64,000 nucleotides of DNA from Xestospongia bergquistia (Eukaryota > Porifera > Demospongiae > Haplosclerida > Petrosiidae), in contig OZ014416.1 in the NCBI GenBank assembly GCA_963965975.1, positions 248,001 to 312,000 on the forward strand, in the 5' to 3' direction. Below, piece by piece: positions 15,413 to 58,422 of the stretch. Numbering within the stretch: position 1 is the stretch's first letter; each line of letters opens with the position of its first letter. The position numbers were made by a program, and so were the translations under genes. A model generated the notes under the pieces. That model searched no databases, was not told where the DNA came from, and worked only from the letters and a program-made list of their open reading frames with translations.

Positions 15413-18400
15413 TTAGAATTTTAACATTTGGACATCTTTAGCTATCATTTCTACTGGACAATATGGACATTTTAATCTATAAAAGTGTAGACAGATAATT
15501 AAGGAATGGATGGATACAAGAATAGATGGATGGATGATAAACTCTCACCTTCCTGAATGGCTAACTAATTTTTTCATCGCATCTCGTGAAATAGCATGTC
15601 CACATGACAACCTCACAGGAGAATTGGTTTCTGAACAAAAATGAACAGAATTTTTAACCCTAAAATGGATCCATGCCTTTTATACCTGATGTCTGTTGAC
15701 GAAGAATGGGACAAGTAAAAATAGAATGATATCGATGTTTCCATGGCAACTGTATTTCACAAGGAAGCTCATCTCTATGAGCCAAAACATCAACAACTTG
15801 TCTTTGTACCATCACAGCTTGAAGATGAAGTAATTGTGGTAATGCAGAACATCCAATAGAAAGAGCAACTGATAATGGACTCTCCAGAGATAAACCCAAT
15901 AGACAACAGGCGTCTCTATTATTACTAATAAATCAAGACGTCTCTAACCACACCCACCTGGTAAATGTATCCATGACATCACTCCAATGCCAAGGGTCAA
16001 AAAGGTCAGAGTATGGGCTAGTTTCTAGTCCTCTTTTGACAAAGAGTAGACAACCCATGAGACGTTGGATATCTATTGTATAGAACATGCCACATTATTA
16101 ATCACACCATTTACTTGTCTAATGACATACACCAAACACATGTCAACAGGTTTTTGATCCATAATATGTGACTTGTTCTAACATAATGATCCCACAGTTA
16201 CACACAACAACAACATTACCAGTTGCTAGGTAACAACAAATATTGCAATGCTGATACAATATTATCACATGGAGAAGTTCAAATTACTGAATAATAAGTT
16301 TACTATAAAATTAATCAGGGACTTAGAACAAGATAAACAAACTGGTTTGACAGGTTTGTATATTGACAATACATAAAATACCACTACATGTAATCAGATG
16401 TAATTATATTTAATTACAACCAATCAAGTATTAATGATACAAAGTGACATTAATGTACAACTTTTGTTATTCTATACAATACAAAGATTTACTATGGGAA
16501 TACATTTGGAGTACATTTAGAGGACAATATCAATAACATAACATGATATATGTATAATACATTGCCAAAGTTGCCATGACATTACTATTGAGCAACTTAA
16601 CTTTTTATGTCATTCGAGTAACCACATAACATTTCCCCTCTAGTAGGGGATACATTTAAAATACAGCTAGAGGGAAGGTTTTGTGGATACCTTATGACAT
16701 AAATTGTCATATTACACAGTTGAGTTGCCAAGATTCTACTATCAAGACATAGTTACTCCACATGTCCTGACTGTTAGTAGTGGTCGCTGTTGTAATTTAA
16801 TTTAATTTGAAATAACTGCCAAAAAGTTTATACTAACATAATTGGCGTCAGTTTTAATGTTATAATTGACCACATCACCAACTGTCTAGAAGAGAATCCT
16901 GACAAGCAAGATATTCTCACTGGATTGTCCACCTGTGAACATTCATAGTGAAGACCAATGTTTGATAATGTACTGATCTCTATTCATTGACAATAGTAGA
17001 GTTATAAAAGGTCTCAAGTGACATACTTTGAACTACTAAAGTCCCACTACAATTACTAGAAATTTCTTATAATAATATTATATTTAATATCTGAATATAT
17101 ATACAGCTGGTTATAATACAGACATCATATAACATAGTGAATATTCCTGTTTCATTATGTAAACTAAACTCGTTGTTTAAAGGAACATTGAACATATGCA
17201 ACATACAAAACCCACAATGAATATGGCCTCAATTAAGTTAAGACCACAGGTCAAACCAGAAACCTTTAAACTCATTAATTATATAGAAACCTCCATGATG
17301 TTAAGGTAAATTTATCATCACAAAGTATAGTATTACTCTGTTTATAGTTTTTTTTACTATGGACTATTGCCACACATATACAAACACACACAAATTAGCA
17401 TTAAACAGAAGGCTTCCTGACCAATCCAAAATACAACACTATTATGACTAGAGAGAGGGAGAGAGCTAAGGTAAGGTAATTACCCTATAGAAATAATATT
17501 ACATGGTTTTCAACAAAATATGTCCCTGTATTATCAGTCAATGTTGTGTGTATTACTCTGTCAGAGTGGCTCCTGAAGGGGAACTTATATCATTACTCAA
17601 CATACTATCATCATTACTATAAAAAGTATGAGCCCAACAAACTTTCTCTAGAATTGCAAAGTACATTATAAACAACACACCCTTCCTTTCCCAAAAAAAA
17701 CATTTCATAGTACTTGTTGTTATAACAACTGTTGTTATGGAAACACAATTAACCCTTTACTGACTCACCTTTGCTGTGACATAAGGAGAACTGTCCAAAT
17801 ACTTTAGCGTATGAGACTGCTTCATTGATCTTACCAATTGATAATAGGGAGAGATAATGTCTTTGACGTAATTTGAACTCTAAAACACTGCCATGATGAA
17901 GGAGTTCTTCACGATGACAAATAGCCCATCTAAATGAAAGGAACGAACTAACATTGTCATGGAAACAAAGCTCCACCCACTGTAATGCTGGCTCGACATC
18001 TCTATTACGCAATGCTTGAACAATTTGATGTACCTCAGTAAACATTGCTACAAAATGTTCATGTTGGGATAGTCCTGTCTCCTAAATGTCACATGACAAA
18101 TCAACAGTAAGTCACATGACTATCACATGACTTTCTTACATTAATTAATGTTTCTGCTATATCCATTTGTCCTTCTCTTAACAAATGTTCACAAATTGCT
18201 CGATTTAGTAGATGGGTGTGGTCTTCAGAGAACATCCCTTTTGCTATTACACTAGTATTGTCCTGAACAAAATACTAGAGAAAAGAGCTAATGTGAGAAT
18301 GAACCATAGTCTCCACCCACTTTATCAATAACACGACCATATTTGGAGATGGAAGCATGTATATCTTTGTGATCTTGTGATATTGTCTGAACAGTTGATG

Positions 18401-18759: not shown

Positions 18760-19128
18760 TCAATTTTTTGCGGACAGAGGTTCTCTTGACTCTCTGTCAT
18801 TGTCATCTGGTAATGGAAATAACTTGTGAGGTACAACTTCAATTTCTTTTGGCCCCGCCCATTTCTCTGTACCACTGCGAATAGGTGTCCGTTGGATTTC
18901 CTTATTTGGAGATCTGGGATCACATGTCCCTCCTCTTTTTGATGACGATAATGATACATAAGTTGATCCATATTTTGGGAAGAAACGAATAGGAGTTCGT
19001 CGAATGTTTCCATTTGGTGATCGTGGATCATGATCTACTCGGATTTTCTGAACATCTATTTTTATGTTCTCTTGATCTTCGCGTGTCTCCTGCTGTTTTT
19101 CTTCTTCCACACTATGGAATTGTCCCAT
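18760..19128 (-). CDS. CDCA3: CDCA3/TOME-1-like protein (DPRSP-RTPI repeats)
   Basis: Single-exon frame of 122 residues. It has two copies of the motif DPRSPNxxIxRTPI (residues about 34-47 and 70-83), which in vertebrates marks CDCA3 (Tome-1), an APC/C-regulated cell-cycle protein linked to mitotic entry. It also begins MGQF, as vertebrate CDCA3 begins MGSA, with Gly2 available for myristoylation, and ends with REPLSAKN, similar to the PLSEN of CDCA3. It is about half the vertebrate length and lacks the long middle. The SP and TP sites are plausible CDK sites. It shares a 190-bp promoter with TTLL10 and lies 110 bp upstream of RMND5. The repeat match is clear; equivalence of function is inference. 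Confidence 0.65.
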   Translation of the reverse strand: MGQFHSVEEEKQQETREDQENIKIDVQKIRVDHDPRSPNGNIRRTPIRFFPKYGSTYVSLSSSKRGGTCDPRSPNKEIQRTPIRSGTEKWAGPKEIEVVPHKLFPLPDDNDRESREPLSAKN

Positions 19129-19318
19129 CTTCAGATCTAGTCGAAATTAAGTTTGTAATTTGAATCTCGCGCCACGTGGGTAAAAACCTATATTTACAAT
19201 GTTAATTGAATTGTTACCATGACAACAATGAAATTAGTCAACAAGTCGATTGGTAATAATTGTTACATTAGAACACACGCATACAAATACTTTAACAATA
19301 TGGACTATTAGTAAAGTA
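19129..19318. promoter_or_regulatory. shared CDCA3-like/TTLL10 promoter region
   Basis: 190 bp between two divergent start codons. It contains the X-box match GTTACCATGACAAC at 19213-19226 and a GCGCCACGTGGG segment (CACGTG E-box) near 19170. Confidence 0.6.
19213..19226. promoter_or_regulatory. RFX X-box-like site upstream of TTLL10
   Basis: GTTACCATGACAAC fits the two-half-site X-box (GTNRCC-NN-RGNAAC style) used by RFX factors on cilium genes. It lies about 93 bp before the TTLL10 ATG. Confidence 0.6.
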
Positions 19319-21205
19319 ATGGCTTCTGCAGTTGTTATGAAAGCAGGGTCTGGAGGAGACAGGCCTAGCTCTGGTTTGTCTGAGATAGTTTTGGAATCTT
19401 CATCAGCAGAACTGCAAGTAGACAGAACCAGCTTCAGTGTCCAGGTAAAGTCCAGCACAGTCAATGAATGCATTAAATAGTCCTTGTTTTATCTTGCTAG
19501 AATGATCATCAAGAAGATGACTCTGAAGAGCAGGATGACATTGTTACAGAGACCAGCAGAGACAAACTCCATAAGGTAACAGTACACAAGAAAGGTAGAC
19601 CAGAGCTACATGCTAAACCCTCTACATCATCCAAACCAAGTCGAGGTTGTCACTCTTACATCATTCATGGTGGAAATGCAGCCTCACTGTTAGTAACACA
19701 TTACAGTACTATTATATACACATTATATATATACAGAGTAAACAGTGTATTGACTGAGTGGAAGTGGGTGAAATTAGAAGACAAACTGTCAACATCATTC
19801 ACTCTGAAGTGGGCAGAACTCAAGCAGAATATTGATTTCCACAGTTTCAAAGAAGGTATATTCTATTTTGCTGCACTGGTATCCACTGATATATATATTA
19901 TTATATATTGGTGCAGGTGAACAGATAGTTAACCACTTTCCAAATATATCACTCCTAACTACTAAAATTGGACTTTTGGAAAGTTTACGAGCTAGCAAAC
20001 GAAAACTACAGTTGTCTTTGAGGTACATTGTTCAGTCCACAAATATATATATAAACTGCTGTTTTAAAATTATAGACTAGATATAAATGACATTTTTCCA
20101 GAAACTTATCGAATGGATGTTGCTTCTGAGAGAGAGGAATTCTTTCAAACCTACAAAGGTACTCAAGTTAATTGAAATATTAAATATAATATTAAACTTA
20201 GAAGGTGATCTATGGATATGTAAACCCACTGGTGCCAATCAAGGCAAAGGTATTTTCTTAGTTCACAATCTAGAACAAATCAAGCAGAAACTAGCATCAG
20301 ATATAACAAATGCACGAGCCTCCAGACGACCTACACCAAGAATTGTACAGAGGTAACTAATTCAACATATCACAACATTACTGTAATATCGTGTACTACA
20401 GGTATATTTCACAACCTCTTCTACTTGAAGGACGCAAGTTTGACATACGAGTTTACATGCTACTGATAGCAGGAGAGAAGCAGCTACTGGCTTTCTATCG
20501 AGAGGGATATATCAGATTGTCATGTCTTCCATATGATGTTGAAAGTCATGATATGACTATACATTTGACAAACCAGTTTGTCCAGAAAAAGCATCCAAGT
20601 TATGCTGACGTCAAAGAAGATACGGTACATAGACAATGACATTTCAGTAAATGGCACTATGACCCAACAGGTGTGGAATTTTGATAAATTACAAAGCTAT
20701 TTAAGTGAAAAAGAGGGTATACCTGAAGATTGGGTATCAACTACCCTGACTGTATGTGATGTTTGTTGTGTTTCATTATATTTCATTAGCAAATTTAGCG
20801 TCAATTGAAAAAGCTAATGCTTGGTTGTCATCACAGTGTGTGTCACAAGTTAGAACAAAGAATTGGATACTTTGAACTATTAGGATTTGACTTTCTTTTG
20901 GATTCCAATCGTCATGTATGTCATCCATCCATTCATTCATTCATCCATCCATATATAAATAGGTGTGGCTAATTGAAGTCAATACTAATCCTTCAATGAA
21001 TACAAATTGTGATGTTTTGAAACAAACTCTTCCTAGTACAATTGAAGAAACACTAGGTACACTAAGTTGCTATGACAACAAGCCTGTCTAACAATCTATA
21101 CTCAACAGGTATGGCAGTGGAAGTGTGGAGTAAAAGTAGGCGGAGAAAACCTATCTTTCCCATCGAAGCTCAAAAAGATTTTGTTACTCTTTTCCCTACA
21201 TGAAT
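19319..21205 (+). CDS. TTLL10: tubulin tyrosine ligase-like protein, TTLL10 type
   Basis: ATP-grasp enzyme of the TTLL family. TTLL10 elongates glycine side chains on tubulin and other proteins; its closest match here is judged by motif. Visible core: LWICKPTGANQGKGIFLV (ATP binding), PRIVQRYISQPLLLEGRKFD then IRVYMLL, HLTNQFVQKKHPSY, EDWVSTTLT, the HHSVCHKLEQRIGYFELLGFD block and VWLIEVNTNPSMNTNCDVLK (metal and substrate residues), ending FVTLFPT. The N-terminal part is acidic and low-complexity. Short introns, one containing an X-box-like word at 21066-21079. The start at 19319 was chosen over an in-frame ATG at 19250, whose extra residues look like untranslated sequence. Exact glycylase activity cannot be read from sequence. 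Confidence 0.85.
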
Positions 21206-21255
21206 TAAATAAATTTGAAACTTTCACTTTTTGAAATTCAATTTCCCTGTTTAAA

Positions 21256-21346
21256 ACTTTTATTTATTATTAAAATACATTCTTAAAATGACACAATACA
21301 TATTTTATTTATTATTAAAATACATTCTTAAAATGACACAATACAT
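21256..21346. repeat. two-copy 45-bp tandem repeat
   Basis: TTTTATTTATTATTAAAATA followed by CATTCTTAAAATGACACAAT appears twice in direct tandem with no obvious differences. It fills most of the 168 bp between the convergent TTLL10 and TBC1D24 stop codons and may carry poly(A) signals for both. Confidence 0.9.
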
Positions 21347-21373
21347 AAAATATATTATAAAATTGTTGTGTGG

Positions 21374-23415
21374 TTATTGCACCCAAGAGATTTTAAATAC
21401 CTCAATAGCTGAACATTTAAAATCTACAGCAGTTGTACCAGTAAGAGGAGAATTGTCATAAGCTGTGCATGAAGCAGAACTTCCTCTGTCCAAATCACCA
21501 TCTACCCAAATACCAAATTGCCTACATTATAGAGGAATAAATTAGTTTATACTTCAGACCCTATCTATGCTAATAATGACACTACTCCAGACCCTATATT
21601 ATTACTTACCCTCCTCCAGAACCTATAATTAACTCTTCATCATTAGCTCTTAAAACAAGATCAGATTTGGCTGTCCACTGGTAGTGAGAAGGGTGTGGTT
21701 TAAGAGTGAAGAGAAAAGTCTCTCCAGAACCAAAAAATGTATTATTATGGCGTTCAGTTAAGTTACCCACGACAAAAGCACCAAAAATCTAATAAGATAT
21801 TAATATTAATTTATTAACTATTATAATTAGCTTACAGCAGCTTCGCTTGATTTGATGACTAGAATAAAAGCATCTTCATGTTCACATTTGTGATATAATG
21901 TACGCAAACTATAGAATGTCGTGATTATATGATTACAATAACATACTTACTTATAACCATTTTTTGATGCCTTAAAGATACATTCCAAATAGTCACCAAT
22001 AGCCCAATCTGGTAACCAATTTACAAGGATCTCTGATAAAGTAGGAGATAAAATCTCTGATGAAGAATCTAACAAATAGATTTTCTTTTTGTTGCTACTC
22101 TCTCTGATTCCTGTTGGAACTAATGTTGCAGGTGGAGTTGAATTCTGCTGAGCAATAGCACAATTCTGTAGCCACAATTTAAAAATAGACTTCCATGACA
22201 AGCGGGGAATAGCCAGAGCTTCATGTATCCATTGTCCACGTTGTTCAAGAGAAAGAGTGGAAAGAAAATGAACTAGGATTTGGTTTATAGTAAGGTCACC
22301 TATATATATAGGAAAAATACAGTTATTTAATATGTACCATTGACATTACATGATCTGTATGTCTCCACTAAAGAACTAGAATGAATCATCTTCACAGCTA
22401 CCAGAGCTAGACGATAAAATATTTTAGGTCCTTCCAGTAAGTATAAATCCATGATACGAACCTAATAGAAATAATAACAATATCCTATTGTTCATGTATT
22501 TTTACATGTAATTTTAAGGGTGTGTCACTTACAACAATCCAGAATGGTTGGTTCAAAAATGGCCAATAACACCAGAGTGATAAAAACTCTGTTTCAAATA
22601 GATCAGCACCCATACCAACTGGTTTAAGAAGAGATAGATTGATATCTCGCTAGAGAAATAAAGAAAGTTATCTATTTGTCTGTCCATCCATCCAACCATC
22701 TTACTAAATGGGAGGAAATCAAGTTCTTTAGTGTCATAATAGATGCAGTCTGTTCAACAACAGTTCTGTCAAGCCAACCTTGACGTTGTATAATCTTCTT
22801 TATAACAACATAACATTCCCATTCTTCTAATAAATGAAGCAGAACATGGACCAATACAGGGAGAAGAGAATTGTTAGGAACTGAAGAGAAGCAGTCCATT
22901 ACACAGCCCATAAGTCTTTCATAAGCTGTGCTAAAGTTGGAACTTTGCGAAAAACTGGGAACACCATCTGGAATTTGGGGTGGAGCTACAACAGGTGAAC
23001 TAGGATCTATACATTACAATATCACATAACTATCACATGACATGGAGTACTTTGTTCAGGTTGGCCGATAGCATGGGAATATGAGATGACGTCCTCATCT
23101 TTCACCTCTAAAATTGCCAACCAATAGTTTCTCCTAACACGAGGTGTTACTCCAGCACGAACATGAGCCTTGAGAGAGGACTTAGCCAAACGTACCTTTT
23201 TCCAAAGGTCTTCATCTAAAGGTTTCGAGGTAGTGAACCTACAGTACACCAGCATTATGATTTAAGATATTAATGTTTTACTTTGTAAGTGACCACACAG
23301 CTTGATATTCCTCTAGATCTGTAAAACACGAAGCAGCACCATCGTGTCTGTCGATCAGAGTCGAGAAACACTCAATTGGTTGGACGACATCACTTCCATA
23401 GCTTAGAGTAGCCAT
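21374..23415 (-). CDS. TBC1D24: TBC and TLDc domain protein, TBC1D24-like
   Basis: Encodes a divergent TBC (Rab-GAP-like) domain followed by a C-terminal TLDc domain, an order typical of TBC1D24, which acts in vesicle traffic and oxidative-stress resistance. TBC part: VRAGVTPRVRRNYWLAIL, LLPVLVHVLLHLLEEWECYV, LWCYWPFLNQPFWIVVRIMD, LLEGPKIFYRLALVAV. TLDc part: FGAFVVGNLTERHNNTFFG, FLFTLKPH, FGIWVDGDLDRGSSASC and the end CSAIEVFKISWVQ. The catalytic Arg/Gln fingers of active GAPs are not obvious, as in TBC1D24. The start MATLSYGSDV was preferred; an in-frame ATG 51 bp upstream also exists and would overlap the shared promoter. Start codons of this gene and LRRC23 are only 55 bp apart. Confidence 0.85.
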
Positions 23416-23445
23416 ATATGCATATCTGCTGGGGGTGTGGCTGAA

Positions 23446-23459
23446 GTTGTCATAGTAAC
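23446..23459. promoter_or_regulatory. RFX X-box-like site upstream of LRRC23
   Basis: GTTGTCATAGTAAC, an X-box-type imperfect palindrome, ends about 11 bp before the LRRC23 ATG. A GGGTGTGG word lies just upstream (23433-23440). The site lies inside the 55-bp gap shared with TBC1D24. Confidence 0.6.
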
Positions 23460-23470
23460 CAAGCAATAAA

Positions 23471-24848
23471 ATGGCCAGTGATGAAGAGGAGGAAATTGTT
23501 GAAGGCGAGGAACCAGCAGAAGATGAAGAATTGGTAAATAATGTAGCTTTAAAAGGTCTAGTAAATCAATATATATTTTTTGAGGTTGATAATCCATTGA
23601 CTGGACAAGTTGTTGGCGAAAATCTTTCCTTACTTTGTAAAACTGGCAATGGACTGTCGCATGCTTTTATCCGACTTGACCTCAAGAACAAGTCAGAGTG
23701 TTCACCTTAATCACGTGAATATCATATGTCTTTGTTTTCATTTAGAAAATTAACTGAGATCTCAGTCTTAAATTGCTATGTTCATCTCCGCTATTTGGTA
23801 GGTCATATGCCTGATCATGTGATTATCACATGACTAATATTATTCACAGGATCTCTCAAATAACAAACTTAGCAACATCAGCGCTGTTAACGCACTACCT
23901 CATCTGCTATTGCTACGAGTGGATCACAACATGCTGACATCAGCTCGTTTAGGAGAGGTATCATGAATAATTCATACAAGTAATGATTTTTTTGTTTTTA
24001 GTTACAATATCTTCAAGTAGCCAGTTTCTCTAATAATCAAATTACTAGTACAGATGGTATTGCCCATCCAATGTTAGAGACACTCAACTTAGCTTGTATG
24101 TATTATATATAATAATATTTATAATGTGTATGTGTGTTTAGTTAACAAGATACAAGTACTGAATGGTCTCTCACATCAAAATCTTCCTTCTCTTCGTATA
24201 CTTGATCTCCATGGCAACCAACTGACGAGTTTATCTGATCTCCGTATACCCACTCTACGACAGTTATTTGCAGGATCTAATCAACTCATTAGTGTGCAAG
24301 GATTAGAGGGATTTCCTCAATTGACGACATTACATTTAAGAGAGAACCAGATTACAACTCTAGATGGCTTCACAGCAGAGCTAGAATCATTGCAGTATAT
24401 TAATTTGAGGTATACTTTAATGAGAAGGACTATTTCTAAACACTTGATGTATTTTACAGAAGTAATAAAGTTACTGAACTTCAAGAAATTGATAAACTTA
24501 CTTGTTTGCCATTTCTTCGAGCACTTAGTTTAGTTGGTATGTAAACTAAATAGACAATTAAAATGACTGCTAGCCTTGCCTAATTATTATGCTCATTGCT
24601 ATTAGCAATATAATTATTGAAGCATTATTTTGTATTAGATTGTCCAATAGGTGAAGTGGACGACTATCGAGTTGAGGTGTTAGTCAGGTTAAGAAAACTG
24701 GAAAGATTAGATAAAGATCAGTTTACAAATGATGAGCGAGCTGATGCTGAAGATGTAAAAAAATAATAATTAAGTTATTATTATTATTATTTATTTATAG
24801 ATATATGCACAAAGACAAACAGAACTACAGCAAGTCGAAGACAACTGA
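23471..24848 (+). CDS. LRRC23: leucine-rich repeat protein 23 (radial spoke, cilium)
   Basis: Ortholog of LRRC23, an axonemal radial-spoke protein needed for sperm motility in mammals. An acidic N-terminus (SDEEEEIVEGEEPAEDEEL) is followed by the signature NLSLLCKTGNGLSHAFIRLD (human: SLLCKTGNGLAHAYVKLE). Then come SDS22-type leucine-rich repeats (LHLRENQITTLDGF, LQYINLR) and a C-terminal cap (RLRKLERLDKDQFTNDERAD, then AEDIYAQRQTELQQVEDN). Several short introns; about 330 residues, close to the human length. An X-box-like site sits just upstream. M6PR follows 98 bp downstream on the same strand. Confidence 0.92.
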
Positions 24849-24946
24849 CCACACCCCCATGAACAAGCTATGAATACTATTATTATAATAAATTTATGAG
24901 CCCCACCCACTGAGCATGACAGTCACATGTTCGACAGTCAAACATA

Positions 24947-26308
24947 ATGGCTAAGATGTTTCTATTGGTGGTACTGATTATCTTGTCAGTATGGGTCTCT
25001 GTAACTGAATCTTCGTCTGTTGATCCGGCATGTTCAGCTGCTCTAACTCATAATGATACACACAAACATTTAAAGGCTTATATTGGATATATTAGGTAAG
25101 TAGACAACTGTATGGATTGATGTATAGATAGATAAATGGATGTATAAATAATAAAGAGTGTAGAGATATTATTGATCCTCTATACATCTCTATATATATT
25201 GTCTTTGTATGAAGTAATTGTACTATTTCAAATAATATTTGTCTTTATTCACAGTGGTGACATCGTTGGTGTTCATACTGATAAATCATACAGATATAGA
25301 ATTGGTATTTGTGTTGAACCTGATCCTGATAATAAAAAAAAGTGTGGTATAGTACAATATGAAGACAAGGTTTATCCTAATGGTACTCAGTATCACAAAA
25401 CTAGGTGTATAGGAATGATAACAAACTCTCAAGTAACAGAAAGTAAGTATATTGTAGTTTAGTCCAGATTAATCCTTTTAATTAGCTAATGATCATGTGT
25501 GGGTGGAGCTAACATATTCCCAAGGAGAAACATATGGGCATCATTGTGGCAGGGAACCAAGAAAAGGTCGTATTGTGTTCCTTTGTGATCCTCTGATATC
25601 TGGCAAGGTACGATGTCATTATGATGTAATTATGAATGCTTGTTATTTGTCAGTTAAGTTATTCTTTAGTTGATTTTAATTACTTTCAGTTTCATTATGA
25701 TATTTTCTAAGGGACATATACAATTTCTTGAGGAAAATCGTGATGACGATATTTGTTATTATTTGTTTACTATTGCATCAAAACAAGTTTGTGGCTCACA
25801 ACTAACTCCCGGAGATATCATATTAATAATGTAAGTGAACTAGTAAATGAATGAACTAATAATGTAAAGTCTTTCTCTTAGTATGGCCTGTTTGGTTGTC
25901 ATTTGGATGGTTGCTATGATATTAGGGTTCTTGTACAAAAGATTCTTTCTTGGTTCTAAAGGTTTTGAACAAGTTCCATTGATCAACATTTATAGAGAAT
26001 TTGGTAACTTGGAAGCTGTAAGTCTATGATACATGTGTTATAATAGATTTGATGTACATATATATTAATAGGATGGATGTGATTTGGTATGTCGAAGTGG
26101 AGAATCTGTTGCACCTTCTAGATATGTGAGTAACAATAGTTTTGACATTTTATTACTCTGCATTCATCCTGTGTTTATCCCAAACAATACAATTGTAAAA
26201 TATAATGCTGTTTGGTTGTTTCCATAGAAACCACCAGCTCCTCCCTTTTCAGCAGAGACAGATGAGGAAACAGATGAAGAGAAGGACGACAACCTTTTAC
26301 CAATGTAA
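24947..26308 (+). CDS. M6PR: cation-dependent mannose-6-phosphate receptor
   Basis: Type I membrane receptor that carries mannose-6-phosphate-tagged lysosomal enzymes from the trans-Golgi. Signal peptide MAKMFLLVVLIILSVWVSVT, luminal P-type lectin (MRH) domain with paired cysteines (GHHCGREPRKGRIVFLCD, EENRDDDICYYLF; the Arg, Glu and Tyr align by eye with sugar-binding residues), one transmembrane helix (MACLVVIWMVAMILGFLY) and a tail strikingly like human: GSKGFEQVPLINIYREFGN, then EADGCDLVCRS, ending EEKDDNLLPM. That end is the acidic-cluster dileucine signal recognised by GGA adaptors (human ERDDHLLPM). Exons 1-2 are 24947-25095 and 25255-25442. About 250 residues against 277 in human. Confidence 0.92.
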
Positions 26309-26653
26309 CACGATTGCCCTTTTTTTCCTATTCTCATAATTTCTTGATCTTTATTGCTTCTTAAGAATTCTAATCATTACATTGGCATTAATTACTATAT
26401 TATTATAAATTATTATATAGCTGTGTTTATCATGTGTGATGCATTCATCCATTATATGTACATAGGCTCTGCTAATGTGTGGTTGTTCTTAGACTTCAGA
26501 CATTTAATACAACAATAGAGTAATCTATTCTAGTCATATGTAGTTGAAAACTATAATATGAATAGAAATATAGACACCTGGTTAGGTTAGCAGTTATACC
26601 ACACTAATATGTTATATTAATGTAATTGAACAGTGTTAATTTGTGATAGAAGA
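26309..26653. other. M6PR-AGTRAP intergenic region
   Basis: 345 bp of AT-rich sequence holding the M6PR 3' end and the AGTRAP promoter. Nothing distinctive was seen. Confidence 0.4.
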
Positions 26654-27987
26654 ATGGATAGTTTGCAAACTTCAAGAATGACTTCTCTATCTCATTTGAA
26701 CTATCAAAACTGGAATGTCCCACCTCCGCCTCATCATGATGAAGTGTCATGTCATCATCACTCATGTGACACTAGTGAACAGCCTCAGCTCTCGTTTTTT
26801 GGTAATATTCAGGATATTGATCGCACGCTTCCACGATCACCTGCTGTAGCAAAGATGCAGAGAGCTACTCTTAATCTAACTTGTCCAGTGATACCTCTAA
26901 TAGTAAGTTATCTTAATTAAGAGAGATAAAGTTACTAAATTATAACTGTATTTGCACTAATAGATTGCAGCCTTTCTTCACTTCACATTGTCAGCTCTGT
27001 GAGTTAATAAAAGCATATTTCTATTGTATCTGGTAACACAATATATCCACAGATAGCATAGTAAACAAATGTAGATTTTATTTCTTATGCAATCAACTCG
27101 TTTTACTCAACAATTAATTTTTAAATTTATCTGGTGTTATAGCTTATTTAGTAACAACAGATTAGATGATATAAAATATGAAAATGATTATTTTAATGAT
27201 AAATCCAAACTATTACATTATTTTTTCTAGTGCCTTGTTGGGGGTTGTTTCTGTAGCTTTTTTATTTACTCATCTCGTTGTAGTATTAGTTGGTATCTGG
27301 TCATCACGAGACAAAACCTCGCTAGAACCTGTTTTAGCGGTAAGTATGCCAAGCATATTGACTGACTCCTTAATGTCAACATTGTTTTTTTTCGTTCTTA
27401 GTTTATTTTTGTCTTGATATTCTCTTGTCTTATTGACATCATTATGTTAGGTGTGTACTGGGATGAAATGACTGCCAGTGATATTGGTAAATTCAGTGCA
27501 TCGTATCCTCATTAATATGTATGTGTCATGACAAGTTATGTGTTAGTACCAGCTGTTGGTTAATAATAATAAACATTAGATAGTGAATTAAAGTAATTAA
27601 TGGACAATGGATGTTTATATTAAACAATTAATTGATGTATTGTTGAGTTATTATTTGTTGTCCTTAACTTGTTATAGTATGGTAATTATCAATTTACTAC
27701 TTAAGGTGAGTTTCTATTCCAATATTAACGAGTATGGGTATGAGGATGGACTAATGTCCCTCCTTTTTATCCACAGCCAGTGTCTGTAATGTTTAGTGTG
27801 TTTGTCCTCTATCAAAGAAATGGAAGTTTTAATTTCTTAGATTACTTCAGAGGTACATCATTTATTATATTACATCATACTGTTAAACTTTCTCTCTCTC
27901 TTTCTCACAGCTCAAAGTGCCTATAATGAGATAGGAGGTCATGTTGATGTGGAGGGAGGTAGTAGTGGTGGACATAATAACGAATAG
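26654..27987 (+). CDS. AGTRAP: AGTRAP-like multi-pass membrane protein
   Basis: Resembles the type-1 angiotensin II receptor-associated protein. In the hydrophobic core MQRATLNLTCPVIPLIIAAF aligns with the human start. It is followed by LGVVSVAFLFTHLVVVLVGI, a third helix (IFVLIFSCLIDIIMLGVYWD), the motif DIGKFSASMVIINLLLKPVS and VFVLYQRNGSFNFLDYF, then a short hydrophilic tail (QSAYNEIGGHVDVEGG). If translation starts at 26654 there is an extra N-terminal segment of about 66 residues rich in His, Pro and Ser (PPPPHHDEVSCHHHS) that human AGTRAP lacks; the ATG at 26854 would give a human-like start. Short introns. A sponge lacks angiotensin signalling as known, so the ancestral role is likely in membrane traffic (inference). 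Confidence 0.78.
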
Positions 27988-28082
27988 ATAGAGAAAAAAT
28001 TGTTACTTAAAGTTTTTGTGAATCATCAGAATTTTATGTTAATAATAATATTATTAATTAGCCCCTCCTCCAAAATTAACCC

Positions 28083-28096
28083 GTATCTATGGCAAC
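28083..28096. promoter_or_regulatory. RFX X-box-like site upstream of ARMC3
   Basis: GTATCTATGGCAAC matches the X-box pattern and ends about 48 bp before the ARMC3 ATG. The intergenic gap from AGTRAP is only 157 bp. Confidence 0.6.
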
Positions 28097-28144: not shown

Positions 28145-31100
28145 ATGCCAAAGGGAAAGAAAGAAGACAAGCCCATACTAGATGAGGTCCGTGAATACTC
28201 TACTGAATACTAAACTGTCACTTTCGCTTTTAGAAATTTCAACAATTTGAAATCAATGCTAAAGACCCAAAGACAGTCGTGTTAATGTTAGACTCACCAG
28301 AACAAACAATAGTTTGTAAAGCATGTCAGGCACTACAGAAACACATGGAGAAATGTTAGTTCACTAATTAACTATACTGTTAATTTCTCTCTCTCGCACA
28401 CACACACACAAACACAACCTTTCTCTTCAGCTGAACAGAACTGTTTAGAAGCACATGGACTAGGTGTAACGCAACGTCTTGTACAGTTACTAAGTTCTAC
28501 AGACAAGACTATATGTGCTTGTTCTATTCTTTGTTTAGCAGTTATGATACCAAACAGTAAATTACCATAATATCTTATTATAATTAAAGTGTTTTTATTA
28601 GTGTCAGTACGTCGATCATTGTTACAAGTGAATTGTGTGTCACCACTTTTAAAAATGCTCAAACCTGATGGTAAGTACTAAATGAAATAATTTTCACATG
28701 ATTATCACATGATCATCACATGATACAGAAGAGTTGGTTATTCTTGAGAAGGCATCCTTCATTGTGTCTCAATTAGCAGGTATATTATAATCCACATAGT
28801 AACAGGCTCCACCCACATATAGAAGAGTTTACATTCAAACAACGGCTACAAGAAGAAGGAGTATGTTCATATCTTCTTCAACTTGTGTCTCACGGAGACT
28901 GTGATGTCATTAAGAACAGTATTAAGGGGTTGTCTCTATTAACTAATCACCACTCGAGCAGAACCTCTGTCGCTGAAGCAAATGGTAGTTTATTAAGAAA
29001 ACTATATCTCATAATTTCTCCATCGTTATATAGGGTTTCCTCAGCTATTGTCATTGTTAGATTCTGAGTATGCTGAGATACAGGAGCTTGTCTTACATAC
29101 ACTGGAACATTGTCTACGAGATGGTCAGTAGATAATATACATTGTATTGATGTGTTATATTATGTAGGACAATGTCGAGTGGCATTTAAAGATGCAGAGG
29201 GATTGAAAAAAATAACAGAATTTTTAAATAATAAGGTAAAATCTATTGTTATATTTGTCTATTCATCCATTCATTTGTCCATCTATCCATTTATTAGGAA
29301 TGGGGTGACTTGCATGTTTTAGCTGTTGATGTATTATCACTTTGTCTTGTTGAGGAAGGAGGAATGGAGGCACTTCACTCATCAGATTGTCTTCAAAGAT
29401 TACTTGAAAGTATCCATAATTCTCAGTTACCACAAATGAAGACAAAAGCAGTAAATAAACCTTCTCTATCTATCAATTTAAAACCATGTGTCCAAATGTT
29501 CATATCTATTTATCCATTTACTTCTTTATTTATCCATTAAATCAGGCACTAGCTTTAGCACGATCATCACAAGATCCAGTCAGTCAGAAAATACTACATG
29601 AACAAAATGCAGAGAAGGTCTTTTTGGATCTCCTCACATCTCAAGTTAGAGCCAGTATTGTCCTTTTTACATAAGCCATACACATATATAGGATGAAGCA
29701 GTCCTTACTGCTTCTTGTGAAGTGCTAACCTCACTCTCTGCTTTAGCTAGCAGTCGTCAACGTGTTGGAAGAGAAGGAGGTATAGCCACTTTGGTTCAAC
29801 TATCACAGCATGCAACTCCAGCTGTACGTTCAGCAGCTGTACAAACATTATCAGCAGTGATTTGGGAGGCTCAAGCAAATGCTAAGTAAGTAAAATGGTA
29901 GACGTCATGTCTCCTTTTATTGGTCTCATAGTTTGGTGAGTGAAGCCGGAGGTTCTGAGTCTTTAGTCGACTTGTTATCTGAGAAAGAAGCATCTTGTTG
30001 TGTGTATGCAGCTAGTTGCATTATTAGTATGGCCCCAAATTGTAAGAATGAATGAATGGTAGACAAATACTTGTACAATACATTCAGGTTCACTAAGATC
30101 AGAACTGGTAGAACAAGGCGCAATAACTGGTTTAGTAGACTGTATATCTCACACTGATGCTCGTGTAGTTAGTACCAGTGTTGAAGCTATAGCATTATTA
30201 GCTACAGACTCTGTGGCCAGAGAACAGGTCAGTCTGGTTATTATAACAGGTATATTATTGGTATTGTCTTTTAGTTTCCTATAGAGAAGATAGATGTATT
30301 ACTTAGTCTAGTTCTATCTAGTCATGTTCAGATATCACGCTGTGCTACGTGGGCTCTGTCAGTACTAGTACAGAATAAGAGAATAACAGATGCAGTCTTT
30401 AGAAAAAAGTATGATATTTTAATGAATGGATTTAACTAATTTCTCTTATATTTAGAGGCCTAGAGACATTAGAAAAATTATCAAAGGAGACTAATCATAG
30501 GGAAATATATGAATATTCACAATTAGCAATAAAACGTCTCTTAGCTGGTAGTCCTGCAGCTAAATATTATATAACTGGATCTCTATCACCTCAAGATACT
30601 CTAATAGGAATTGAATTCTGGGACATGGGTATGGCAGAAGCTAAGGGAGGGTTTACACCTTTAGAAGACATTATGTCTCAAACACCAAGTTTAAACAGGT
30701 ACATGTATGATATTTGATAGACAATAATAGTTATGTCATTTATTAGACCTGTATTGACAGTATCCCTGATAAATCAGCCACTCCCCTCTCCTCCTCCAAT
30801 AATAGGGAATGAGGAGGGTGTGGCTGGAAGGGAAGAGTCTCTTTTAGAGGTATCTGTAGGACAATCTAAGAGTAATCGACAGACTCAAGCTCAAACTACA
30901 ACTAAAAAGTATAGACTTCAAATATTTTATTTACATCATTTTGTGTATAGTAAAAAAGGAAAAGGAGACAAATCAAATGAAGTGCTAATAACTGATTTAG
31001 GGGAGGAGTCTGAGCAACCACACCTAACAGACTGGCTGCTTCCTCCCGATGAAGGTCTATGGGAGCACATCACTTATGTACAGACACACATACAGCCTCT

Positions 31101-31514
31101 GACATCAGTACAAGAACAAGCTGAGAGATTAGCAATGTAAGTATAGAAATGTGTAACTGTTAGTATAAAGACCTCTCATTACATAGTTATGTATCACAAG
31201 TAATGGGTGGAGCTGTTGGGCGGAGCACTAACTTCCAATTTGAGCTACCATTAGCCAAGACTCAAATCACTAATCATTCTCCTCTGGTTCCACTGGGGAC
31301 AATACGCAAGGGAACATTTCAACATCGTAGCCTACTATATAAAGTGTTGTCGGATCATTTGGGTCTTCCATGTTCTCTCTATCGTGGACAATATGGTCGT
31401 TATTGGAACACTGTCTTATTAAATAGAGGAGAGTGGTTAGTTGATATTATGTACATACCAGGCAAACTATTAGAATTAGATGAACAAGACGCAGCTAATT
31501 ACAAATCTATTTAA
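28145..31514 (+). CDS. ARMC3: armadillo repeat-containing protein 3
   Basis: Ortholog of ARMC3, a cilium/flagellum-associated scaffold. Start MPKGKKEDKP (human MGKKIKKE). A long series of ARM repeats follows (PKTVVLMLDSPEQTIVCKAC, LLSLLDSEYAEIQELVLHTL, VDLLSEKEASCCVYAASCII), then a Pro/Ser-rich linker and a C-terminal EDR1-like, transglutaminase-fold domain (PLGTIRKGTFQHRSLLYKVL, GLPCSLYRGQYGRYWNTVLL, WLVDIMYIPGKL). The latter is shared with human ARMC3 (HVKKGIFYHRALLFKALADR). About 850 residues in about 17 exons; most introns about 50 nt. The intron near 28673-28727 is almost wholly made of three TCACATGA words. An X-box-like site lies just upstream. Confidence 0.93.
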
Positions 31515-32070: not shown

Positions 32071-33836
32071 CATATATATATATATATATATATATAAAGA
32101 TTACATCTTGTAAATATATCAAATAAACTTACAATTTGTTCAGAGTCTTTAGGAGAGAATGGTAAGGTAGCACGATCTGTCACAATGTACTTACTGACCT
32201 CCTCCGTCTATAATATATTGTTAACAGTATCAAAGTATATAATAATACCATATATGGTAAACACACTTATTACAATTGTATGGTAAAACTGTACTTTGTC
32301 TACTAGTTGTTTGAGGTGATGTTTTAACCAAGTTACTGGTGTAGTCTTTATAACTTTACGTATCTATAATAATATATGTGGTCATGAATGAGAAAGGTAT
32401 TATAGTTACCCTAATAGTTGTAGGAAAGACCATCTCTGGAAAACTAATAAGATGAGAATGAGTTGCTAGTAGTCTAAGTAATAACTCAATTGTCATATTG
32501 AGAACTGCACTCTGTTAGGGCCATATATAGCAATAGTGAACGGAGGAAGTTGTCAGTACATACCTGTGTTCCTCTTGCATCAATTTGGCCTTTCTTGAAC
32601 TTCAGTGTACATTGCAAATTTGGTGGTTTGCCAGTGGTTGTTTTGTGTGACACATTACACGACTGTGTCTCCAAAATCTAAGAAATAGGACAGACAGAAA
32701 ACATAAAGTACTCCCTTTGGCAGCTGTGGAGTCAATTATACACAATGCGATATATTAATTCAGCTGGAATTATCACATTAATAGACTAATGGACTGGACT
32801 AATGATCAGACTAATGGAATAGTTTAATGAAAGATAGTATAAAGGACGGAGCAACAGGGATTAATGAAGGTAATGGAACAATGGAAGTATTGAGATATTG
32901 GGACAATGGTGATATGGGACAATGGAAGTATTGAGATATTGGGACAATGGTGATATGGGACAATGGAGGTATTGAGACAATATTGCAATGGGACAATGGA
33001 GGTAACTGGGACAAATAATGAAATTACTAACCTCAAGAAGTATAGGAGCAAGTGGAATATATGTATTGGTTTCTGTGGCAACAGTGAGTAACATCCTTAC
33101 AATATGAAGTCGTGTAGGTACATGAGCAGTAGAAGGTAGTACTTGGACAACCCCTAAGGCTACTTGAGTGACAGGATATATCAAAGGAGAGAGAACATCG
33201 CTGGTACAACAAGATAAAACAGCTGTAAAGAGCTCAAGAGAGTGAATAAACGGCCATGTTGCTATGGCAACTTTCTTGCTAGAATAAGCAGTTCGAAGTT
33301 GGTTTGCCAGTTGGCGAGTGTACACAAATATGAGTTGGTAGGCGTGGTCATATGATAACGAGAGGAAGTCAACAAGACACCCACACATAAAACGAACATG
33401 AGGGAGAGTTGAAGTTGAAGTGAATCGACTATTACGAATATAGGAGAGATATAGTTGCTAGTGGAGAAATGGATGAATAACTCATTAAATGGATGCATAC
33501 TTTTAGTGTTTCTTGTTTTTTGTGTTCATTGAAAGACAAGTAAATTTTCCTCAAAATTAAAAAGGCAATTACAGCAGCTTCTTCTCTACTTTCACTCCAT
33601 ACACTTATTAATAATTTATTGAGGAGTCGAGATAACTTTGGATAACAACAATAGTAGATCCAAAGGTGTTCAATATGACGTAGGAGAGCACAAACCATAC
33701 TAACATCAGTCACACCCTTTAACAGCTAATGGATGAATAGTAAAATAAATGGACAAATAGAAAATGAAAATGAACTATAGAGAAAGTAATAGGACTATCT
33801 CTAAAGAAAGTAATTAAGTTCTACAGTGACAATATT

Positions 33837-33918
<82 letters not shown>

Positions 33919-36900
33919 CGTGTGTGCGTGCGTGCGTGTGTGTGTGTGTGTGCAGACACTCTTTGCAGACAATGTAGGCTAGTAAATAAACAATAACACA
34001 TTATATGTTTATAATAGATCATTGAAGTCCTCTATGAGGGGACCACCCATCCTCCCCCGGCACAGGATGTGGTCTATTATATAGTACCCTGATGTACCAC
34101 AGGAAGAACTGCCCACTTACTTGTAAAAAATCAGTTAAATAAGACTTGATAATAATACTTAAACGCCTCCACTTTTTGAGTGAAGAAGGCAAAGCAAGTC
34201 TATAATGAGTGGGTGGAAGAGGAAGTAAACATCTGGTTATGACATCCTGATACTGAAATTGTTTACTATAGTTATTGTATCAGGGAGTAGATATGTTTAC
34301 TATAATATCTTATCATAGGGACTACCTGGTATGGTTATTAGGGATAGACTCTTGTCTGATGAAATAACCTCATAGACAACATGATATATAACTATATGTA
34401 CATGTACAATTAATACTTGTTGGTTGATTGGGTAACAGGAGGAGGAGGTAAGTGATGTTCCAATGTTTGACGAACATGACGGAGACAGGCGACAACAATG
34501 GCATTAAAAACTACAACACATAGAATGTTATAATTTGATGGTATCACTAGCTCACAATGTACCTTTCTCTCCTTGTACATAATACAATGATGATGACAGC
34601 TGTTCTTGCTGACGTTTTTGTTGATCAGTATAGGAAGATAGAATAGAGAGAACAGCTGAATGAAGTGCTGACGTGAGCTCTGTTAGTGCCACAATAGAAT
34701 GATTCTATGGAGAGTCAGAGAATGGATGTACAAACAACAGTTAATGGACAGATGATTGAAAGTATGAACACACCCACTAATCTCTTATATTAACAATTTC
34801 TTTTGTCATAATTCAACAATTTAAAGCAAAAATGTACTTCTTTTTATCAAGATGTTTCAATAGAGGCTATTCAAGAATTCAACAAAAGAGAATTCATAGA
34901 ATCATGAAGGAAGTCTAGTTACTATTATCTTTAGTCTAAACATCATTCTGAGTACCAACACTTATACCCCACATTTAAATACAATACTTCCTTTGTATCC
35001 TCTCTACTATAGATAAAAAATAGTACAATGTTCTGTGACAGCACAGACACAGGAAGAGATGAGAAATAGAGTGTGATGTTATTGTTGTATCTATCCAATA
35101 TATTAGACAGCAGACTGGCACATTCTCTATATGTTCTCTATAATGTATAATGTTTTGTTTGTCTTATTGAATCACAACACACAACATATAGAGTAGGAGT
35201 AACATTAAGAGAATGACACTAAACACATCAAATGACAGCAATTACTAGACCATATTAAAAACAAAATCCTCTTAAATGGCAATACTTCATGGGACAATGT
35301 GTGAGCAATACAGTAAGTTACCACATACTCACTCACCATACTCAATTGATATAATTTTACACTAGAGCTATAGAAAATGATCATTATGTTATCTGTTGAT
35401 GTCACATTATAGTCACATGATAACAATGCTTACTGTCTTGAGTCTTTCACTCCAGCTGTTTACAAGTTTCACTGTCACCATAACCCTCTCCTTCTTATCA
35501 ACGACCTTCTCCTAATAAAGAGAAGAACAATCAACAAGGTCACCTAAACAACTCTCACACTCTCCCTCCCTAACTCTCTTTGTCCATTATGTGGGAACAG
35601 TCAAATGTGTTGCCATGGTAACAATACAGCAATGAACTGATCAATAGAGTAATGGTACAGGTTTGGTTTGCTTTGACTTGAACTAATAGAGCCGGGGGAA
35701 CAAATGTGTATCCCTCTCAAAGAAACGAGACAGGTAGCTGGACTATTCACTTTGAATGGGTGTAGGGTCACCATAGCAACACGTAAACATGTGTACGTTT
35801 GACGAGGAACACACCTTGCTTAATGGGACATTTCGACAAGTGCATAAGACGAAAGAAAACTCACACAAGTTAGAGAGATGGGGAGAGAGTTTACTCATGT
35901 TATTGTATTGTCTGACAATGTTGTGATCTACGTATGTCAATATCATTATCTTTTTTTAGTGTTTCTTCAAATAAAAACAATATCTTATGTTACTCAGAGA
36001 GATGTCAAGCTTTGTTCAATTAAGTAAGATCTTCGAAACTCGACAACTGCAACAATACCAGCTGGTATTGTTGCTAAAGGTGGTGACTGAACAAGCGTTG
36101 CTTAGCAGCCAAACCTTAATTTAATAGCTTTTTGGACACACAGGGGGTAATAAAGCCTTGTAAAAGATTGTTGGTTAGTAACACATAGTTATACTAATAC
36201 ACCTGTTCACATACTAACTATCTAAGGTAATTACAAGGCCTCCAGCAAAGAACAATGCAAAGACATGTAAAAACCACAAATAAAGAAAAAAGGCTGAGAA
36301 ATTGGGTTGAAGGGCAGTCCTTCAATAACTTATGGCACTTCCATCAAGTAACATGCTGAAACCTATAGATAACACAGTAACCCCAACTAAGATATATAGT
36401 GCTTCTGGGTATTACGCAACCATCAACTAATGTCTGTAAATGTTTTTTCAGACTGCTACAGTTAATGTTATGTAATAGACATTTGATGTGAGTGCACAAA
36501 CTAATTAGAAGAGACAATATCATGTTACATGAGGCATAAAAAATTTCATGTAATTCTCTTTGTTGCAATAAATTACGTAATATTAAAGACTGAAAAGTTT
36601 GTAAGGTTGTAGTCATGGTCACCATCATACAACCTGCATTGGTTGCTATGTTGATAGTGGTCAACGTACTGTGGTAAAAAAATCTGAGGACTGCTAAGAT
36701 ATTTCATATTTCACACAGAAAAAATGTTTTCCTTGATACATTGAGGGCTTGGGGTCCTAATTGATCATGTTCAAAACGACCTCCCACAGTTCTTAGCTAC
36801 ATGGCTTCACTCAGTCCTATGGTTGTATTTGATAACTTAGTCATGTAACCAACCATTGACTAGACAAAGTAAACAACATACCCAAAAATGGTAGACCTTT

Positions 36901-50320: not shown

Positions 50321-51294
50321 TTAAATATTTTTATGATCTTTCTGAAAAGTTCTCAATACTTTTCTTGTCCACGATTCATAGTCAGATCCCGCCCACATTC
50401 CAACACCCTTCCTCTGGGCTTGTAATTCACGACGAGTAAGACTGGTCATAAATGATGCATACTGCTTGTTGCTATGGAAACCTTTAGTATCAGTAACAGT
50501 GGCTAGACCAGCTGTTACTAGGGCTTCATTAACGCTATATTTGTGTCGCAAGAGTCCCTAATGAAAGACAACAATGGATACAACATTAGAGAAATGGATA
50601 GATAGGTATATTGGACATACGCAAAATGGATGCATAAGAAAAATCTGATCTTTTTACTTTTCTTTTTGCATAAATAATACATTTAATAGCATCTCCTTCA
50701 TTATGTAACAGTTTGAACTGGACAAACTGGTTTATCAGGTTTCCTTTAAACCACTGATGACTAAGTTCAGATTTAGTAATAATGATCCCAGCAAACTGAA
50801 GATAGAGAAGATCAGAATTTACTAGAGAAACAAGTCTATTTAATTTGTCTCTCTGTGCGTCTGCTGTACCTGAGGGAGGATTGGTTTTCCATCGGAGTAA
50901 TCTGTTACCAAGTGGCACATGCCACACCCCCAAACTGTCATCAAAACATTTGATGACTCGACCCGACAATTGGGAATTATGTTGTATCAGGATTTGTGGA
51001 ATATCTGATGCTTTTTTGAAGTGATGAAACTAAATGTAACATAGGAATGAGACTAAATATAGGAATGAGACTAAATACAAGAATAAGACATGGGAATGAG
51101 ACTACATAGTATGAAACTCAGAGAATAATGCTACATACAACATGTGTGTGTTTCACAAGAAGATAACTTCCAATCCCTCCAATAAACCAAGGTATTATCT
51201 GTATAACAGCTGAAAATATGGCCAGAATTCATTTGTTTACACTCACCCTGACCAGTCTCAAATGATCATCTATCCATTGACTGAGCCTGTCCAT
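50321..51294 (-). CDS. C3orf33: C3orf33-like protein
   Basis: Resembles human C3orf33, a poorly known protein with an SNase-like/OB fold and an N-terminal membrane anchor. Start MDRLSQWIDDHLRLVR matches human SRWADQHLQLVRS. Then comes a short hydrophobic exon, RVIKCFDDSLGVWHVPLGN, SDLLYLQFAGIIITKSEL, WFKGNLINQFVQFKLL, then NEALVTAGLATVTDTKGF and SLTRRELQAQRKGVGMWAGS, where human has LLKAELTALKKGEGIWKE. This last block is the SNase-type C-terminal helix; catalytic Arg/Glu of true nucleases are not evident. About 240 residues. A short repeat (AGGAATGAGACTAAATA) occurs in the intron at 51028-51115. Divergent from PLEKHM2 with 57 bp between start codons. Confidence 0.8.
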
Positions 51295-56025: not shown

Positions 56026-58422
56026 TTATTTCTTTTTCTTTAATTTTTTACTTTGTTTCTTGTCGTTCAATGAGTCAATGTTGACTCCACCCATTTGCGG
56101 GGTAGCATGTCCTGTCTCTTTTATATGAGTAAACAGTTTATTACGAGAGGAATAATCCTTTTTACACATCATACATGACCAGCTGCCACTACTTTGACCA
56201 TGAGGTTCATTGATCGTTAACTTTTCCTAGAAATCACAGTGACAATATACAATGTTATTAATGATATAATTACTGGAGGATGAAGGGTTTTCCCTTTTTT
56301 CTTGCGTTTTGTTTTCTTATTAAGACTTTCTCCATTCCACTCACTGTTACAAAAAATGAAATGAAATGAAATCTTAAGAAAAAAAACACTAACTCTTCAG
56401 AATCTATAGTTGCCACGGTAACTTCCTGATCCTCCTCTTCTAACAAAGACAATTTTCTGAGAAACAGTTAAATTAAAAACAAAAGGTTTAAAGATTTACT
56501 TAGGAGCACTATAAAGTAACTCCACCTCTTCCTCCACCCCCTCATTATCAGGTCCTACAAGATCCTCTAGTGTTGTATCAAAATCATCCAATGTATCATT
56601 AAATGTTGTCACAGTAGGTTCTATCACATCATGTGACTCAGCAGTAACTACAAGTTCATCTTCTATTCTAATATCAGCTGTGTTGTTAATGGTAGCAGCT
56701 GTGTTATTAGTGGTAGCAGCTGCTCCAATACCTCCAATCTCTTCATTATCTGACTCATCATCAGTTAGCACTTGTTTTAGTAAGATAACATTTTCTTTGT
56801 GCTTCTTGGACTTTTCATGATTTACAAAACTAAATTAAACAAGAGAGGTATGTAGTAAATGAGATATCTCTTACGCTTTATCAGATTTGAATATTTTGTT
56901 ACATGCAGCACAAAACAAGTCCAGTGTGTCTGATTCATCAGATCCACTCTCACCTGATATACCAAAAATCTCTAATTACATAACTGGAAAATATTACTCA
57001 CTATCAGTATCTTTACCAAACTCAGTGTCAAGACGAGCCTGCATGGAAGCCATTTGCTAGAGAGAGAGAAAGAGAGAGAATGGCATTTTTTTGTTAAATA
57101 TTGATCTTGTACCTTTTCAAACAATTCATCAGTTTCCCATTCCTGTGGTTTGTAATCAGATAATTTTAACTCTCTAAAAGTAAAATTTTAATAATATTTA
57201 TATTATAATCAAATTACTTACTCTAGTCTTTTACGAGCATCAAATGCTTTCCTTTCTAATATTCTTTTTTGTCTCTCTTCTTCTTTCTCTTCTAGAAATT
57301 TCTAAAAATAACAAGTATCAATGACATCATTAAAACTAATAAAACATACTTTATATGCTTGAACTCGTTTATCTCGTTTGCGTACAAAAGCAACAAGTTG
57401 CTATGGAAATATTAATATCATATGTGTACCATAATAACCATCAGTATTCTAATTACCCGGATACTCTCATTTCGTTTTTTCTTAGCTGCATCACGAATCT
57501 TTTTATTATCTTTCTCCATTAGTTTTTGAACTTTACGATTGGGAGCCTATATCATTTAACCATAGCAACAATCACATGACCACACAAAAATATAAACTGA
57601 CTTGTGTACGATCATATTTATTTAACCAGTGATAAGGACGACAGGTAGAAAAACTTTGCCAGTAAGAATAAAATGGATGCACAATCTATTTCAATTAAAG
57701 AGTCTTTTAAAAACCTCACAACATAATAAAATACCTCTTCGTAATCACTTGTGGAACATCCTTTAAAAATTTGAATGGGTAATTGTATCAAAAATTATTT
57801 CAGGACTAACCAAACAGTGGTAAACTAATAGAATCATCTTCAGCAAATTGTGCCTCTTCATCTGCTATTCTTGAAAATACTGCACCATAGACTCCATAGA
57901 AACCCTAAATGATTATGCCTCCTGTAATAATCTACATTAATTAATTAATTATCTTTACCTTACTATCATCTCCATATCCAGTGTAGACTGAGGGACTGAA
58001 GAAAGACATAACATTGATGACATCATCTTTGAACTCTGACCCCACTGTAATTAATGAAAAATAATTAATTACTAGTGTCTACATTGTTACCTCCGTAAAG
58101 TATCTCTTCTCTGTGTCTGTCATACCTGTAGTGAAAATCATCTGACAATCACATGACACTCACATGATGTTAATAACCATGCTCTTTCCTGTGGATCACT
58201 AAGTACTTCATAAGCATGTTGAATGGAATGAAATATTTTAGCACATTCTTCAAGATTGTCTGGATTCTTGTCTAAAGAAGAGTGATCACGTGAGTCATCA
58301 TTTTTGATCTCCTTTTCACCTGGATGATATCTAAGTGCCAGTTTTCTGTAAGCCTTCTTTAAATCTTCATCAGATACTGCTCTATCTACGCCTAGTATTT
58401 CATAAAAACACTTCTGAGCCAT
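56026..58422 (-). CDS. DNAJC21: DnaJ homolog DNAJC21
   Basis: Hsp70 co-chaperone of 60S ribosome maturation (yeast Jjj1), recycling shuttling factors. J domain: [34 protein letters not shown], then [21 protein letters not shown] and [13 protein letters not shown]. The HPD codons are split by a 48-nt intron (58272-58319). Next [17 protein letters not shown] and [20 protein letters not shown], then RRxxREA-like basic coiled coil ([20 protein letters not shown]). Two U1-type C2H2 fingers: [20 protein letters not shown] and [20 protein letters not shown], then a Lys-rich end ([11 protein letters not shown]). Acidic low-complexity linker between the fingers. Convergent with PLEKHM2, 51 bp between stops. 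Confidence 0.94.

Follow-up and report, generated by a model that had tools for sequence, protein, structure and literature searches.

The window analysed here is a 64,000-nucleotide stretch of contig OZ014416.1 from the sponge Xestospongia bergquistia, in which three cilium genes, a TTLL gene, LRRC23 and ARMC3, are each preceded by a site resembling the X-box, the palindromic element bound by transcription factors of the RFX family. Genes and sites are listed in Table 1. The top solved-structure match of the TTLL gene is 5vlq_A, named 'LOC100158544 protein', which we take to be Xenopus TTLL3, while the match of LRRC23 at 221.5 bits compares with 67 bits for the next other protein. Divergent genes lie upstream of TTLL and LRRC23; the first (18760..19128) has no Pfam match and is presumably CDCA3-like, and the second (21374..23415) is taken by us to be TBC1D24-like. 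No Rfam match was obtained within the window.

X-boxes were scored with a symmetric matrix, written by us from the X-box consensus, with a top score of 22.5 bits. The three 14-mers that the first-pass annotation had reported before TTLL, LRRC23 and ARMC3 were recovered letter for letter, and their placement near the start holds in each case when measured to the ATG (92, 11 and 48 bases). They are degenerate X-boxes, each consisting of two inverted half-sites at an allowed spacing and scoring 15.6-18.2 bits; compared by eye with the strict form GTNRCC N0-3 RGYAAC at 2-bp spacing, as printed in PMC10530576, each is one or two letters off. The site at 19213 also lies 84 bases 5' of the ATG of the divergent CDCA3-like gene, and that at 23446 lies 30 bases 5' of the start codon of the divergent TBC/TLDc gene.

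Table 1. Genes and X-boxes of the window, with start-proximal X-boxes at axonemal genes elsewhere in the genome
Feature	Position or locus	Strand	Context	Score or match
X-box GTTACCATGACAAC	19213..19226	.	92 bases 5' of TTLL ATG 19319	18.2 bits
X-box GTTGTCATAGTAAC	23446..23459	.	11 bases 5' of LRRC23 ATG 23471	15.6 bits
X-box GTATCTATGGCAAC	28083..28096	.	48 bases 5' of ARMC3 ATG 28145	15.8 bits
TTLL gene (TTLL10 in the first-pass annotation)	19319..21203	+	last exon read by eye	PF03133 TTL, 167 bits
LRRC23	23471..24766	+		best solved-structure match 9fqr_Xm, 221.5 bits
ARMC3	28145..31514	+	end depends on model	Arm repeats; EDR1_CTR1_ARMC3_pept (peptidase-like), 64.6 bits
Divergent single-exon gene	18760..19128	-	two DPRSPN..I.RTPI repeats	
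Divergent gene	21374..23415	-		TLDc domain, 120 bits; TBC domain slightly below cut-off
Strong X-box	2401		UBE4B body	
X-box GTTTCCATGGCAAC	15737..15750	.	RMND5 coding exon	20.4 bits
X-box-like site	17731..17744	.	RMND5 intron	15.3 bits
X-box-like site	21066..21079	.	short TTLL intron by eye; gene model reads as coding	17.4 bits
Strong X-box	24205		LRRC23 coding exon	
Strong X-box	26218		across splice acceptor	
Weaker X-box	33069		NOC2L coding exon	14.9 bits
X-box GTTGCTATGGCAAC	33258..33271	.	NOC2L coding exon	19.9 bits
X-box GTTGCCATGGTAAC	35609..35622	.	large NOC2L intron, by reading	20.7 bits, best in window
X-box	35767		large NOC2L intron	17.5 bits
Strong X-box	40981		intron	
Strong X-box	44490		MFN coding exon	
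X-box-like site	50468..50481	.	C3orf33 coding exon	17.8 bits
X-box-like site	56409..56422	.	DNAJC21 coding exon	17.8 bits
X-box, TPH gene	L033		ends 27 bases before ATG	at least 14 bits
X-box, TPH gene	L034		ends 67 bases before ATG	at least 14 bits
X-box, tektin	L068		ends 47 bases before ATG	at least 14 bits
X-box, TTLL	L073		ends 23 bases before ATG	at least 14 bits
X-box, TTLL	L077		ends 34 bases before ATG	at least 14 bits
X-box, DUF4200 gene	L085		ends 33 bases before ATG	at least 14 bits
X-box, DUF4200 gene	L086		ends 23 bases before ATG	at least 14 bits
X-box, CIMIP2 C11	L099		35 bases before ATG	17.4 bits
X-box, DRC2	L102		32 bases before ATG	20.7 bits

Start-proximal X-boxes in the window and elsewhere in the genome

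Within the window, 21 gene starts could be placed, belonging to the three cilium genes, their two divergent partners and 16 other genes. This count excludes NOC2L, ATP10 and the gene at the right end, whose starts could not be placed, and the start of UBE4B was set by hand. A site of at least 12 bits within 300 bp was found at 5 of the 21 starts, namely those of the three cilium genes and of the two partners that have the sites at 19213 and 23446 in common with them. None of the 16 other placed starts has such a site, which agrees with the earlier statement that the remaining promoters of the window lack a full X-box. Taking the window starts alone, the cilium genes (3/3) differ from the others (0/16) with p = 0.001 (Fisher).

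The same genome was searched for axonemal gene families and for control families (proteasome and ubiquitin-conjugating, UQ_con), and in each gene the scan covered the 1.5 kb preceding the first domain match. Left out were the three proteasome loci (of 13) that lacked an N-terminal match, UQ_con matches beyond 12 genes with an N-terminal match, tektin C9, which fell below the cut-off, and TTL matches outside the 11 regions taken (further copies of the C14 cluster, C15 and C5). Most axonemal sites were read as lying directly 5' of the start codon. Among the controls, 17 of 22 have no site of at least 14 bits in the 1.5 kb; the five sites that do occur (3/12 UQ_con, 2/10 proteasome) comprise one in a first intron and four at least 322 bases upstream of the start as placed. 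Counted by position close to the start codon, the tektin, TPH, DUF4200 and Tctex-1 families give 5/10 positive genes. In a test set beforehand on further families (CIMIP2 and DRC), 2/4 were positive against 0/22 controls (Fisher 0.018). All axonemal families other than TTL together give 7/14, with sites 23-67 bases before the ATG, against 0/22 controls (Fisher 4.1e-4), in a small sample and under a position rule that is partly post hoc; with the 16 window starts added to the controls, the comparison becomes 7/14 against 0/38 (Fisher 2.6e-5). Counted as negative were three near misses: DRC1, with 13.8 bits at 83 bases before the ATG; Tctex C5a, with a 15-bp variant 7 bases before the ATG; and tektin C7, with a 13-bp variant seen by eye. 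CIMIP2 C6, for which no upstream site was found and the start was not located, was likewise counted as a miss.

The reverse approach, starting from ten X-box loci of contig C1 that had no evident repeat partner, yielded one clear gene-start case. At this locus (L024, 1501-1600), the X-box lies 17 bases before the ATG of a DUF4639 gene, presumably of the C2orf81 family. At L025 and L026, high-scoring frames lie 156 and 122 bases from the X-box, that of L026 resembling a transposase by eye, and the other seven loci have weak frames only.

A candidate binding protein is also present. RFX-domain matches occur at three loci of the genome. The C5 domain was assembled manually from two exons of L001; against human RFX1 (1dp7) it scores 133 bits, and TRRLGTRGNSKYHYYG is identical in the two. 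The genome encodes a predicted RFX1-type DNA-binding domain. The structure 1dp7 is a complex with X-box DNA, and the two C1 domains look RFX4/6-like by their motifs.

X-boxes away from gene starts

The first-pass annotation had seen full X-boxes at the promoters of the cilium genes and at most half-sites at the others; as worded, its tie of X-boxes to cilium genes is not supported in the wider sequence. Seventeen window sites reach 14 bits. Third-order Markov sequences, 20 in all, held 0.55 such sites on average and never more than 2, so that the window total is about 30 times the expectation. Of the 17 sites, 14 lie away from starts: seven in coding exons, five in introns, one across a splice acceptor and one in the body of UBE4B, as located from gene models and reading by eye. 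Two of these (24205 and 21066) are still within cilium genes, and the other host genes have no known ciliary tie. Placed by reading within the large NOC2L intron, the sites at 35609 and 35767 were rejected as promoter elements of NOC2L/ATP10.

When the columns of the palindromic matrix were permuted (2520 orders, the true one included), the mean was 0.43 window sites of at least 14 bits and no other order reached 17; at stricter cut-offs, two other orders equal the true one at 16 bits and one does so at 18 bits. The 13 proteasome loci (46 kb) carry 7 sites against 0.24 expected, and the RFX and axonemal loci (27 kb) carry 5 against 0.13, both with a column-order result at 14 bits like that of the window. 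The 78 kb of sequence around X-box sites of contig C1 show a weaker surplus (3 against 0.29), with 42 of the 2520 orders equal or higher. All 24,576 dyads formed by 4096 half-sites at spacings of 0-5 were then ranked in about 130 kb of mostly genic DNA (the window and the proteasome, RFX and axonemal loci, cilium genes included), which was masked because tandem repeats swamped the unmasked scan. TTGCCA/TGGCAA ranks first (19 against 2.6 expected) and GTTGCC-N2-GGCAAC second (11 against 0.75). The half-site GTTGCC is strongly enriched only at 2 bp, other spacings giving 0-3 occurrences against 0.25-1.4. Across the whole genome, exact copies of GTTNCCATNGNAAC number 1142 + 1128 on the two strands, with palindromic sites counted on both strands and some lying in repeated sequence; the reversed pattern has 50 + 56.

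These figures give some weight to the view that X-box-like sequence is simply in surplus and has fallen before the three cilium genes by accident, with no ciliary link, given that most strong sites of the window lie away from starts and that proteasome loci and the genome as a whole are also rich in the pattern. The control density of 5 sites in 33 kb, however, predicts a site within a given 100 bp in about 1.5% of genes, whereas 3/3 and 7/14 cilium genes have one, against 0/22 and 0/16 elsewhere, and such a coincidence is very improbable.

In the modelled coding sequence (23.6 kb, NOC2L and UBE4B omitted), six sites were counted against 0.69 under synonymous-codon shuffling, with a maximum of 4 in 200 shuffles; one of the six, at 21066, is truly intronic, so that five remain. 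Codon usage was on this ground rejected as an accidental source of the coding X-boxes. Together with the first and second ranks of the RFX dyad and the RFX-type domains at three loci, this excess lends itself to the proposal that X-boxes in gene bodies serve a second RFX function, as internal enhancers or as chromatin or boundary sites, of which the promoter sites would be a ciliary subset. The proposal is a tentative one, and somewhat unlikely on balance: the surplus may instead have a mutational or historical cause, the basis being the sequence of one genome, and human functional X-boxes far from starts are called the exception in one report (PMC5838959). It is likewise unlikely that the dyad is a pervasive element, kept at some 30 times the chance rate in gene-dense DNA and several-fold above the synonymous-codon null in housekeeping exons, which RFX would bind for a purpose other than ciliary starts (e.g. 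internal enhancers or chromatin organisation).

Repeats offer a different source. Among the 26 loci extracted first, 15 fall into groups that share flanks by eye (L012-L018; L022/L023; L008/L009; L020/L021; L028/L029), as would be expected if much of the genome-wide surplus consisted of copies of mobile elements or other repeats with an X-box-like palindrome. The window sites, by contrast, have no common flanks by eye, on which ground they were rejected as repeat copies, and some lie in coding exons (RMND5, NOC2L); the flanks of the C1 sites also show a weaker surplus than the genic loci. A repeat origin for much of the genome-wide surplus is judged quite improbable. With one genome as the basis, the surplus in gene bodies may reflect constraint, old repeats or a mutational cause alike.

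Probable RFX control of axonemal genes

The simplest account is that RFX dimers at start-proximal X-boxes drive the axonemal genes, which the recurrence of such sites and the predicted RFX1-type domain make very probable. The X-boxes would sit in core promoters or 5' leaders, where a dimer of RFX1/2/3 type would bind with one monomer on each GTTRCY half-site and 2 bp between them, and would turn the gene on in ciliated cells, the binding, the direction of the effect and the cell type all being predicted. In each of the two divergent promoters, the common site might act on both genes. The earlier proposal of RFX control of ciliary genes stands in part: the start-proximal X-box recurs and an RFX1-type domain is found, but the motif by itself does not set cilium genes apart, since most window sites lie elsewhere and the proteasome loci show the same surplus. 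What looks special to the cilium genes is the position directly upstream of the start codon.

Several points weigh against this account. Because strong X-boxes abound across the genome, a lone X-box is weak evidence. Counting any site of at least 14 bits in the 1.5 kb upstream gives 9/21 axonemal-family genes and 5/22 controls, with no clear difference, and the position rule of about 100 bp was adopted after the first families had been viewed. Starts are ATGs, modelled with a gene finder of our own or read by eye, rather than transcription starts, and some control starts were not located and could be further upstream. Of 11 further TTL genes, 2 are positive by the position rule; in the other nine the start could not be placed. 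Half of the axonemal genes have no strong start site (2/3 tektins, 3/3 Tctex-1, 1/2 CIMIP2 and 1/2 DRC).

Comparison with known RFX systems

The sites resemble the ciliary X-boxes of animals (DAF-19, dRFX, RFX2/3) in their palindrome, their position near the start and the type of target; in Xenopus, Rfx2 targets include ttll7, ttll9, ttll13, mns1, components of the dynein regulatory complex and Tekt2 (PMC3889689). They differ in distance from the X-boxes of Caenorhabditis elegans, which are placed 100-250 bp before the coding sequence by Chu et al. 2010 (PMC2873420), compared with 11-92 bases before the ATG for the putative sites here. In choanoflagellates, Coyle et al. 2023 describe an RFX motif enriched at ciliary promoters close to the start, as is the case here; the motif enriched in that cRFXa module resembles a monomeric half-site, whereas the full dyad is prominent in the sponge and abundant outside promoters too (PMC10530576). 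Coyle et al. already infer that the RFX module predates animals (PMC10530576), and the title of Chu et al. argues that the meeting of RFX with ciliary genes preceded the metazoan origin (PMC2873420), so that the claim of common ancestry adds little even for an early animal. The present data extend the RFX-cilium wiring, at sequence level, to one more genome, with start-proximal placement. This wiring is itself a known system; the abundance of the dyad within unrelated genes, exons included, is not ordinary, and its reason would bear on RFX roles besides ciliogenesis. None of the papers listed in literature searches dealt with how abundant X-boxes are in sponge or comparable genomes, which is not proof of absence.

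Further sequence features

An E-box, CACGTG, lies at window 19173-19178, and the same hexamer occurs in upstream stretches of L068, L073, L086, L038 and L099. Within 200 bp before the start it is found in 6/18 ciliary genes and 2/21 others, the two non-ciliary cases being MFN and CDA, which have one common promoter. The window as a whole contains 7 copies against 6.1 expected.

The window also holds a gene at 10561-13906 that was absent from the earlier gene list and that we take, by eye, to be dystrobrevin-like. A repeat carrying GTTACCATAGTAAC occurs with common flanks at the seven loci L012-L018 (C1:1665751-1746719), and the UBE4B region contains tandem arrays at window 4224-5078 and 3150-3480, made up of CCCTGTACAGGACAATA-like and CTAGTCTAGA-type units.

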